From IMG/VR virus record IMGVR_UViG_3300009421_000015, positions 1-21,755 of that record: a stretch of DNA of 21,755 nt, one strand, 5' to 3'. The notes under the pieces are model-generated. The model did no database searches. It was given only the letters and a program-made list of their open reading frames with translations, and was not told the DNA's origin. The DNA comes from a virus. Position 1 is the first letter of the stretch. The number at the start of each line of letters is the position of its first letter. Positions 14,101-19,129 of this stretch are shown here, piece after piece. The position numbers were made by a program, and so were the translations under genes.

Positions 14101-15264
14101 CTATCGCTGTCCGCGCGCTATCCGCATCTCCGCGAGAATGTCGCGAGACTGCGGGACCGCCGGTGGGGGCGGCGCGAGCGGTTGGCGAGCCTGTCCACCC
14201 ACGGGCGCGTTCATGCGCGCGTGCGCGGCCTTGGCTGCCGTGCGCGTTGTCAGGGAGGCATCGGGCACGGGCTCGGGCGGTACTGCTGCCGGAGCCGGTG
14301 CGTATCGAGCAACGTGCTCGCGCGTCATCTGGAGCGCTCGTGCGATGTTCTCCGCCGGCCGTAGATGAGGCTCGGTCATTCGGAGCGATTCGCTGTAGCG
14401 GTCCGCGACATCACGCATGACGCTGTCGCCGAGAATCATCGCGTTCACAGGGTCCGTGGATACCTGCGCGATGGCGCTCTCGACCTCGATTTGCTCACGG
14501 GCCTGCATGGCCGCCTGCGTCGCGATGACGCTTGCGTCCGGCAGGGCCGCTTGCTCGTGATTCAGGCGCTCCACTAGAGCCGCCTGTGCCTGCTCATCAC
14601 CCTCGAGGAACGCCTTTTCCAGCGTCTCGCGAGTGATGCCCTGTGGAGCGCCTTGCGGTGGCTCCGTCACTCCAGCGCCCTGAGAAACGGGTGGCTGGTA
14701 TCCCTGCGGTTGCGCTTGCAGGGCTTCGAGTCGTTTGCGCTCAAGGGCCGCTTGCTGCAGCCTTTGGTCGCCGGTCAGATATTTCTGTGCGTTCGAGTGG
14801 TACTGCTGATAGGGCAACGTTTGCGGCTGCCCATCAACGACGAAATCAACGTACCACTGCCCGTCCTCGCCCTGCCGCGTACCGGGTGGCAGCGACGGGG
14901 CGGGAACGGGTTCCTGCTCCTCGGGCGCCTCGGCTTCGACTTCCGCCGCTTCTGGCGCCTCCGTCTCCTCTTGCTCGCCCTCCTCTGATGTAAACCGCCC
15001 CTTCTCGTCGCGCGAGCGTTGTGGCTGCGCGTAGTCGGGCATCACGGCATCGGCCGCCGGGCTCGCACGGGCTGCCAGTGCCGCCTCTCGCCTATCGGCA
15101 GGGGTGGGCTCAGGCTCGGCCCGTGCGGGCTGTTCGGGCTCGGGCTCCGGGATGTCCGGTGCGGCTACATCAGGCGTCGGCGCGTCAAGCTGCGCCTCGG
15201 CTTCGAGGACTTCGGCGTTCTCGCGAACGTCGGCGTCTCCGCCCGGCGGGGTAGGAGAACTCAT
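14101..15264 (-). CDS. Capsid scaffolding protein
   Basis: This 387-residue protein is very acidic in its first 170 residues with repeated Glu-Pro and Glu-Ala tracts. It contains the RDEKGRFTSEE motif (about 85-95) familiar from phage scaffolds. Helical Gln/Glu/Ala-rich segments follow (about 150-290, for example RLQQAALERKRLEALQAQ). It ends in a short basic helix, AEMRIARGQR, as scaffolds that bind coat do. It lies directly before the major capsid gene, as T7 gene 9 lies before gene 10. ATG 15264 has CGGAGC eight bases upstream, so it carries its own ribosome site in addition to the odd element at 15313-15324. It should direct procapsid assembly and then leave the head. Confidence 0.82.
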   Translation of the reverse strand: MSSPTPPGGDADVRENAEVLEAEAQLDAPTPDVAAPDIPEPEPEQPARAEPEPTPADRREAALAARASPAADAVMPDYAQPQRSRDEKGRFTSEEGEQEETEAPEAAEVEAEAPEEQEPVPAPSLPPGTRQGEDGQWYVDFVVDGQPQTLPYQQYHSNAQKYLTGDQRLQQAALERKRLEALQAQPQGYQPPVSQGAGVTEPPQGAPQGITRETLEKAFLEGDEQAQAALVERLNHEQAALPDASVIATQAAMQAREQIEVESAIAQVSTDPVNAMILGDSVMRDVADRYSESLRMTEPHLRPAENIARALQMTREHVARYAPAPAAVPPEPVPDASLTTRTAAKAAHARMNAPVGGQARQPLAPPPPAVPQSRDILAEMRIARGQR

Positions 15265-15294: not shown

Positions 15295-15309
15295 TCACGA
15301 CGCGGGCAC
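15295..15309 (-). other. Five-codon leader-like reading frame behind a perfect Shine-Dalgarno
   Basis: GTG CCC GCG TCG TGA follows the perfect 16S-complementary element with 9 bases between AGGAGG and GTG. It would encode M-P-A-S and stop 30 bases before the scaffold ATG, in the same frame. It is too short to be a gene, but the spacing is ideal for initiation. It could be a leader that loads ribosomes for the scaffold gene, or chance. Confidence 0.3.
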
Positions 15310-15312
15310 TTC

Positions 15313-15324
15313 GGATCACCTCCT
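15313..15324 (-). promoter_or_regulatory. Perfect 12-base Shine-Dalgarno (AGGAGGTGATCC) remote from a normal gene start
   Basis: On the minus strand this element is fully complementary to the conserved bacterial 16S rRNA 3' end (GGATCACCTCCT). The next true gene start, the scaffold ATG at 15264, is 48 bases downstream and has its own GGAG. The only start at normal spacing is the GTG of a five-codon frame. Such a long perfect match is rare among genes and far stronger than any other ribosome site in the window. Confidence 0.65.
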
Positions 15325-15366: not shown

Positions 15367-15654
15367 TCAGTAGTCTTCCTGAGCGCGTGTTAGCGCGGCA
15401 TCGTGTAGGCGCGCCTCCATCTCGATGGCGTACTCTCGGAAGTAGCGCGCGGCACGTATCCGAGCCAGTGCATCGGCCTGCTGCGTCGTGTCTCCGCGCG
15501 ACACGCTCTCAATCAAGTCCTCGACGGCCTGCGCCTCGTCCTGCGCGGGAAGACGGAGGATGGCGTCAGCGATGAGCGGGTCCGACATGAAGCGAATGCC
15601 GTACGCCTGCGCCTCGTCGAAGTCGCGCTCCTCGGCCGCCGTCTCGTCCGTCAT
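15367..15654 (-). CDS. Small acidic helical protein between portal and scaffold
   Basis: This 95-residue protein (MTDETAAEERDFDEAQAYG...) is acidic and almost entirely helical: LIADAILRLPAQDEAQAVEDLI, then TTQQADALARIRAARYFREY, then EMEARLHDAALTRAQEDY. Its ATG overlaps the portal stop as ATGA, so it is translated with the portal. No family recognised. A small helical gene in this spot often makes a portal-associated or scaffold-accessory factor; this is inference. After it comes the 102-base gap with hairpin and strong Shine-Dalgarno. Confidence 0.65.
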   Translation of the reverse strand: MTDETAAEERDFDEAQAYGIRFMSDPLIADAILRLPAQDEAQAVEDLIESVSRGDTTQQADALARIRAARYFREYAIEMEARLHDAALTRAQEDY

Positions 15655-18443: not shown

Positions 18444-19129
18444 GCGGCCGAATCCGGCACGACGCTGAGCCCCCGCTCTGCGGCCCTCTGGCGAACTGTT
18501 CTCACAGCTCTACGCGACTTCTTCAGCTCTCGGCGCCCCTTCTGAGCGGCGGGCGACGGCAGGAACCAATACGCTCGTCCCTCATGCTCGCTCTCTGTCA
18601 CCATGCCGTTCTCCACGAGATGACGAATCGCCCTTGTCACCGTCTGCCGGCTGTAGCCCAATCGCTCCTCGATTTGCTGACGCGTCAGGGGCACCCGGCC
18701 GCCGTACTTGGCCATTCCGAGCATCAGCAAGAACACGGCGCTATAGCTACCTTGAAAGCCCGGCGCCTCTACGTACTCAACCGCCTTCGTTTGCATCAGC
18801 CGTATGTGCTCCTCGTGTCGAGCCCTGTTGAGATTTCGCCTCGCTCGCGCTATCCACTTGAAGTGTTCGTCAATGCAGGTGAACGCCTCGTCAGCGTCCG
18901 GTCCATCATCGGTCGCATAGCTCCGCATCTCGCCCGTCCCGCCGTGCGTGACGACGATGGGCGGCCCCTTTTGCCCCACCTCAGCGGCCTGTCCACCAGA
19001 GGGCAGCCCTGTCCACAGATGGACAGCGCAGGCGTGACGCGCTGCGGCTTTCGGCATCTTGCTTATTTCGTATCCTTGGGCCTTGGCACGCGGGCATCCC
19101 GCCGCTCGGGTAAGCTTGTCTTCGGTCAT
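18440..19129 (-). CDS. Winged-helix DNA-binding protein, regulator or RepL-like
   Basis: This 229-residue protein has a helix-turn-helix at about 147-172 (PLTRQQIEERLGYSRQTVTR then AIRHLVENGMV), with the wing strand EHEGRAYWFLP after it. This is the arrangement seen in MarR/RepL-type winged helices, with Ser-Arg-Gln-Thr-Val on the recognition helix. Residues about 85-115 are a basic helix (FKWIARARRNLNRARHEEH). The C-terminal 30 residues are strongly basic (KGRRELKKSRRAVR), likely for DNA contact. The N-terminal 80 residues have no recognised fold. ATG 19129 has GGGAG about 10 bases upstream and follows a terminator, so it may begin its own transcription unit, although no promoter is clear. 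A regulator between packaging and portal genes is unusual. A pair of palindromes lies within its early coding sequence. Confidence 0.75.
   Translation of the reverse strand: MTEDKLTRAAGCPRAKAQGYEISKMPKAAARHACAVHLWTGLPSGGQAAEVGQKGPPIVVTHGGTGEMRSYATDDGPDADEAFTCIDEHFKWIARARRNLNRARHEEHIRLMQTKAVEYVEAPGFQGSYSAVFLLMLGMAKYGGRVPLTRQQIEERLGYSRQTVTRAIRHLVENGMVTESEHEGRAYWFLPSPAAQKGRRELKKSRRAVRTVRQRAAERGLSVVPDSAA
18989..19026. promoter_or_regulatory. Tandem palindromic sites, operator candidates, inside the winged-helix gene
   Basis: Two 18-base inverted repeats lie 20 bases apart: CTGTCC-ACCAGA-GGGCAG (18989-19006, one mismatch) and CTGTCCA-CAGA-TGGACAG (19009-19026, perfect seven-base arms). They share the first eight bases. 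They occur about 100-140 bases into the coding sequence of a DNA-binding protein. Spacing of two helical turns suits cooperative binding on one DNA face. They code for residues about 35-48 and may be chance. Confidence 0.4.

Follow-up and report, generated by a model that had tools for sequence, protein, structure and literature searches.

A covarying hairpin of phage scaffold genes and a full-length Shine-Dalgarno sequence ahead of one of them suggest a translational control region

The scaffold genes of a group of related phages carry a small hairpin which is kept by selection beyond protein coding; its stem covaries, and its location with respect to this one gene is fixed. The window (the whole stretch of viral DNA that was analysed, 21,755 nucleotides) holds several copies of the hairpin in and just before its scaffold gene, and a 12-mer perfectly complementary to the 3′ tail of 16S rRNA lies upstream of the scaffold start. 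Judging from the sequences, we give a probability of about one half to the reading that the scaffold gene has a translational control region to which the 12-mer belongs, and in which the conserved hairpin would act as a protein-bound translational operator. The earlier note on this DNA had suggested that the 12-mer might load ribosomes for the scaffold and capsid block, pause them or serve as a leader peptide control. The scaffold start does look like a translational control region, by way of a conserved hairpin which that note had missed, but the 12-mer on which it relied is absent in relatives.

In the window, all on the minus strand, the portal protein gene (17975-15651, phrog_1216) is followed by a small conserved gene (15654-15367), the scaffold gene (15264-14101, 387 aa) and the gene for the major capsid protein (MCP; 14068-13067, phrog_1357). 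This gene order is common to about 100 related loci, where scaffold genes were called mechanically as the suitable ORF immediately before MCP. The scaffold protein of the window has no PHROG or Pfam match; it was identified from its place after the small gene and before MCP, and from its homology to the proteins encoded at this place in relatives. The family of the small protein is predicted to be a three-helix protein. Its model is confident (pLDDT 94.4), but a fold comparison yielded nothing at E <= 0.001; the nearest structures are uncharacterised proteins of N4-like and other podovirus phages, which speaks neither for nor against the small protein as a binder of the hairpin described below. 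The same slot between small gene and MCP is occupied in N4 and EE36phi1 (L447, L450) by gp57 and gp64, respectively; both bear the annotation of a tail length tape measure protein and are probably misnamed. In eight relatives (L008, L021, L025, L043, L093, L106, L126 and L095), terminator-like stems with T-runs lie directly before the scaffold leader, and suggest separate transcription of scaffold and capsid in these phages.

When the leaders of relatives were placed side by side, a recurrent GCC-YA-YCC-N4-GGR-C-GGC was seen just before the scaffold Shine-Dalgarno sequence. Where the small gene and the scaffold gene abut, the same hairpin falls in the first scaffold codons, and a second site lies about 370-680 nt inside the gene. 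The architecture begins with an outer stem of 3 bp or more. Next, YA in the 5′ arm faces C in the 3′ arm, and a YCC/GGR inner stem closes a free loop; strict copies have loops of 2, 4, 5, 6, 7 and 8 nt without fixed sequence. The strict descriptor found 72 copies in 76.5 kb of scaffold genes as against 11 in 670 kb of sequence elsewhere on the same strand, which is about nine times longer. Only 1 antisense copy occurs in scaffold genes. Descriptor variants with one motif position changed gave 0 or 1 match in scaffold genes, and at most 1 copy was left when the adenine of YA was swapped for C, G or U.

Coding does not account for these counts. Synonymous codon shuffling of all scaffold ORFs, with protein and codon usage kept, left a mean of 0.6 copies (maximum 5) as compared to 64 in the real genes; the window scaffold gene has 3 copies, and 4947 of 5000 of its synonymous shuffles have 0. 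In cores picked blind to the outer stem, all three outer pairs were present in 80%, as against 19% in shuffled sequence (maximum 31% of 2000). The same counting on A6 gave a covariation of 0.462 against 0.158 (0/500). An earlier covariation count on A5 was partly circular, most of its rows having been picked by pairing, and is superseded by these two and by the descriptor and codon-shuffle counts. Among the start copies, 18 encode Ile..Asp and 13 encode Thr..Gly, with a single mixed case. The two combinations are almost never mixed because U-A or C-G base pairing demands the match, which protein chemistry does not explain. In the MCP tree, the branches with good support require no fewer than 7 (U-A) and 9 (C-G) changes of label, with copy losses counted in.

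A covariance model built from 12 UTR copies matched the first codons of many loci left out of model building, the E-values of so short a model being rough. The hairpin has no match among Rfam covariance models, and we do not class it with the MS2-type, the CsrA-type or any of the other systems compared here. A description of it was not found in the open literature, where coverage of journals is partial, and the family is apparently undescribed so far. CsrA/Rsm targets present a GGA in a hairpin loop. A CsrA/Rsm site was considered and rejected, as GGR here sits in the stem and covaries, and the inner-stem pair states (CG 28, UA 46) make it GGG in about one third of copies. Coliphage PTXU04, one of the carriers of the hairpin, has a CsrA homologue (PMC11879866).

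The position of the hairpin relative to the scaffold start was compared between loci. Of 11 start-proximal copies that lie upstream, 9 have their end at -15 to -12; downstream ones lie between +4 and +48 and begin at +4 to +29. The start codons for these offsets were chosen by Shine-Dalgarno strength, so that individual values may be in error. One or more strict copies are present in 49 of 68 distinct loci, redundancy having been removed only via identical gene starts or sites. The cultured coliphages PTXU04, Pondi and HelliStehle (Bas95) have one internal copy each, and Vibrio phages have internal copies also. Among the matches listed from two collection scans, 48 have the MCP family on their strand; 47 of these occupy the scaffold slot and the remaining one lies 1752 nt before MCP. 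Where that MCP is missing, the matches are for the most part background, given such short patterns. No strict copy was found in the scaffold slot of the outgroups N4, EE36phi1, BPP-1, a Streptomyces phage and a Bacteroides phage, and no hairpin in the scaffold relatives from Grimontviridae, VPp1, APT65 and Venkman. In a group whose MCP belongs to another family (L395, L407, L410, L428, L442), a related sequence is found at the beginning of the scaffold genes (PHROG 3927); these are five close homologues fetched by the pattern itself and serve as a lead only.

Within the window, the start copy UCUCC-UA-CCC-CGCC-GGG-C-GGAGA (15258-15236, minus strand) occupies scaffold codons 3-10. It has a 5-bp outer stem (-10.2 kcal/mol), fits the strict descriptor and scores 17.0 bits by the covariance model, though it is absent from that model. 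Three internal copies lie on the same strand. CCAGC-CA-CCC-GUUUCUCA-GGG-C-GCUGG (14698-14672) again has a 5-bp outer stem (-12.0 kcal/mol) and was found by covariance model and strict descriptor. GGAGC-CA-CC-GCAA-GG-C-GCUCC (14665-14645) is a relaxed copy with a 2-bp inner stem and 9.3 bits, and AGG-UA-UCC-AC-GGA-C-CCU (14465-14449) is a weak copy (-1.8 kcal/mol) which still fits the strict descriptor. In the 5′ UTR, a variant copy (15291-15270, minus strand) adopts a motif-shaped predicted fold of -3.4 kcal/mol; it is weaker, with a 2-bp inner stem and an A.A mismatch, and its 3′ arm holds the GGAG of the scaffold gene itself (15274-15271). The relaxed descriptor has six matches in the window (0.28 per kb), of which four fall within the scaffold gene or immediately ahead of it. 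At that density, the chance of such a variant arising by accident in the 40-nt leader is about 1%. A possible further copy, CCC-UA-CCC-AC-GGG-C-GGG (21596-21580, minus strand; 18.1 bits by the covariance model), lies just upstream of the putative small terminase gene.

The 12-mer AGGAGGTGATCC (15324-15313, minus strand) pairs with the 16S rRNA 3′ end GGAUCACCUCCU with a computed energy of -22.2 kcal/mol; pairing at most other genes of the window phage is weak, about -3 to -13 kcal/mol. At Shine-Dalgarno spacing (9 nt from AGGAGG), it is followed by the 4-codon frame GTG CCC GCG TCG TGA (MPAS-stop; 15309-15295, minus strand). This frame is in register with the scaffold gene, and 30 nt separate its TGA from the scaffold ATG at 15264. 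The whole lies in the 102-nt gap between the end of the upstream ORF at 15367 and the scaffold ATG. The earlier note had the sequence and every coordinate right, and had pointed out the scaffold gene's own GGAG. A second contig of the same virus, L002 (IMGVR_UViG_3300027498_000013; 99.9% identity over 7.3 kb), also has the 12-mer, and its gap is identical including the TGA, which rules out an assembly error. L002 (1-9384) continues the virus about 9.4 kb past the window end, upstream of the terminase genes. At window position 19101, L002 has 4 extra bases (a GGGA repeat) that alter the start of the ORF at 19129-18440.

The 12-mer may be a neutral chance match in a lineage-specific spacer, without function, the hairpin being a separate matter. 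We give this a substantial chance, if somewhat short of even. The earlier note had called a chance match unlikely, and the numbers bear it out: about 0.0024 exact matches are expected in the window (both strands, dinucleotide content) and 1 was found, a figure to be read with the fact that many windows were scanned for any striking motif, so that rare matches are expected somewhere. Outside the virus of the window, about 1.3 Mb of related loci hold 0 matches (0.13 expected). Its setting also argues against chance: the gap is short and non-coding, the match is on the coding strand, and a start codon follows at a workable distance. On the other side, the 12-mer is absent from all 67 other distinct related loci (all at <=46% MCP identity to the window), and no relative has a 16S complement longer than 8 nt within 160 nt upstream of scaffold. 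Conservation of the 12-mer had been put forward as a check; it failed everywhere except in the same virus, the relatives compared being distant ones only. As the nearest relative shares only 46% MCP identity, the absence marks the 12-mer as lineage-specific and is not proof of uselessness. Searches for closer relatives by TerL, MCP or portal returned only the same virus from viral contigs and none from genome contigs, and the window phage has no DNA similarity to cultured phages.

Folding favours the chance reading to some extent. For the core of the 12-mer, about 91% pairing is predicted, most of it to an upstream CCUUCUG in a predicted CCUUCUG/CAGGAGG hairpin (15338-15319, minus strand, -8.1 kcal/mol); its unpaired probability is 0.085, and 9% of flank shuffles are as low. 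Over its full length, the leader is no more stably folded than its own shuffles (z 0.12). Two perfect 5-bp hairpins with GNRA-type loops (GAGA and GUGA; 15359-15346 and 15303-15290) flank the 12-mer. No promoters or terminators were found in the gap between small gene and scaffold. This gap ranges among relatives from an overlap to about 216 nt, and the window's lies toward the high end. Its -1 frame has a coding score of 0.119 per codon, which is close to the 5th percentile of genuine coding sequence and exceeds almost every off-frame score, but no upstream start codon opens this frame. Among 81 sampled viral stretches with 12-mer-NNN-GTG, 37 have open frames of at least 50 codons. Frames of fewer than 10 codons lie mostly inside other genes, and among these short frames that of the window is the only one not inside a longer frame. 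The 12-mer is a possible lineage-specific ribosome-loading site in the window phage, whereas the ribosome pausing or attenuation also suggested for it found no support.

For the hairpin, the position at the edge of the ribosome-binding site, the restriction to one gene and the recurrence of copies agree with a translational operator bound by a protein. Most likely, the binder would be the scaffold, the capsid or some other protein of the phage; by blocking initiation it would make scaffold output track head assembly. In the window phage, the scaffold start appears squeezed between the variant hairpin that holds its GGAG and the strong hairpin from codon 3. The full-length Shine-Dalgarno sequence about 50 nt upstream could serve as a ribosome-loading or standby site, from which ribosomes would reinitiate at the scaffold ATG beyond the 4-codon frame; neither feature is conserved. 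Internal hairpin copies may raise affinity or serve another step. Against a simple operator that blocks the ribosome-binding site stand the 19 of 68 loci without a strict copy and the loci which have an internal copy only.

Internal copies far from the start, found inside the ORF in many loci, are more readily accommodated if the hairpins act on mRNA processing, stability or transcription, as an RNase target or in pausing or antitermination, instead of on initiation. The terminator-like stem and T-run just upstream of scaffold in several relatives would agree with this. The start-proximal copies, however, lie tight against the Shine-Dalgarno sequence on its 5′ side or the start codon on its 3′ side, as expected of an initiation operator, and we hold an action on the mRNA to be unlikely, though it deserves weight. 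It is improbable that the scaffold gene once began at GTG 15309 behind the perfect Shine-Dalgarno sequence and moved to ATG 15264 after one substitution created the TGA. The frame is the same and the TGA at codon 5 is the sole stop between GTG and ATG; but the TGA is present in two contigs, aligned scaffold N-termini agree with the ATG start, and the frame scores low for coding over the gap (-0.098 per codon). A DNA site for binding or packaging is still harder to credit: position and orientation are indeed fixed relative to one gene, yet the outer stem often has G-U pairs (in pair 2, 19 GU among 84 copies), which suit RNA pairing, and YA/C is asymmetric, unlike a DNA dyad, with copies holding one orientation. 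That the motif mirrors a conserved scaffold peptide can practically be dismissed. In-ORF start copies are indeed all read in one frame and encode a common peptide of the type AIQxDV, but internal copies use another frame, UTR copies are untranslated, residues switch only in base-pairing combinations, and the loss of nearly all copies on synonymous shuffling contradicts it.

With the initiation operator as the preferred reading, we tentatively propose a wider one, to which we give clearly less than even odds. The hairpins would form an undescribed family of RNA operators, one to several copies per scaffold mRNA, in a wide group of podovirus-like dsDNA phages; they would be bound by scaffold or capsid protein and couple scaffold synthesis to assembly, and in the window phage the full-length Shine-Dalgarno sequence would feed the controlled start. 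Scaffold and capsid protein have to be kept in balance by a phage, and the idea of a feedback on scaffold synthesis goes back to P22. A covarying hairpin confined to scaffold genes would make such control directly testable. The cultured coliphages that carry it give experimental access, and for PTXU04 knock-down tools exist (PMC11879866). The hairpin would further be a case of tight regulatory RNA concealed within phage coding sequence, out of reach of intergenic searches.

Several known systems offer comparisons. Lambda bar minigenes and leader minicistrons have a strong Shine-Dalgarno sequence before a frame of few codons, as does the window; the codons of the window frame differ, and the element is without conservation among relatives. 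The coat operator of RNA phages (MS2/R17 type) is a small hairpin at the ribosome-binding site, in which a purine close to the loop is left unpaired in the 5′ arm. The scaffold hairpin resembles it in size and site. The A in its own 5′ arm, which the strict copies require, is part of the YA/C internal loop in place of a single bulged A. The hairpin differs in that its loop is free in sequence and length where the MS2/R17 operator has a conserved four-base loop, in belonging to the scaffold gene of dsDNA phages and in its repeat copies within the ORF. The T4 gene 43 operator is a hairpin upstream of the start that mediates autogenous repression (PMC3014915). Some copies of the scaffold hairpin likewise lie upstream of the start, but the T4 operator has a conserved loop sequence and serves a DNA polymerase, whereas loop identity is free here. 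The scaffolding protein gene of P22 is reportedly autoregulated (Wyckoff and Casjens 1985, as referenced in PMC5744158). P22 belongs to a different phage group; feedback on scaffold synthesis through the hairpin would follow the same logic.
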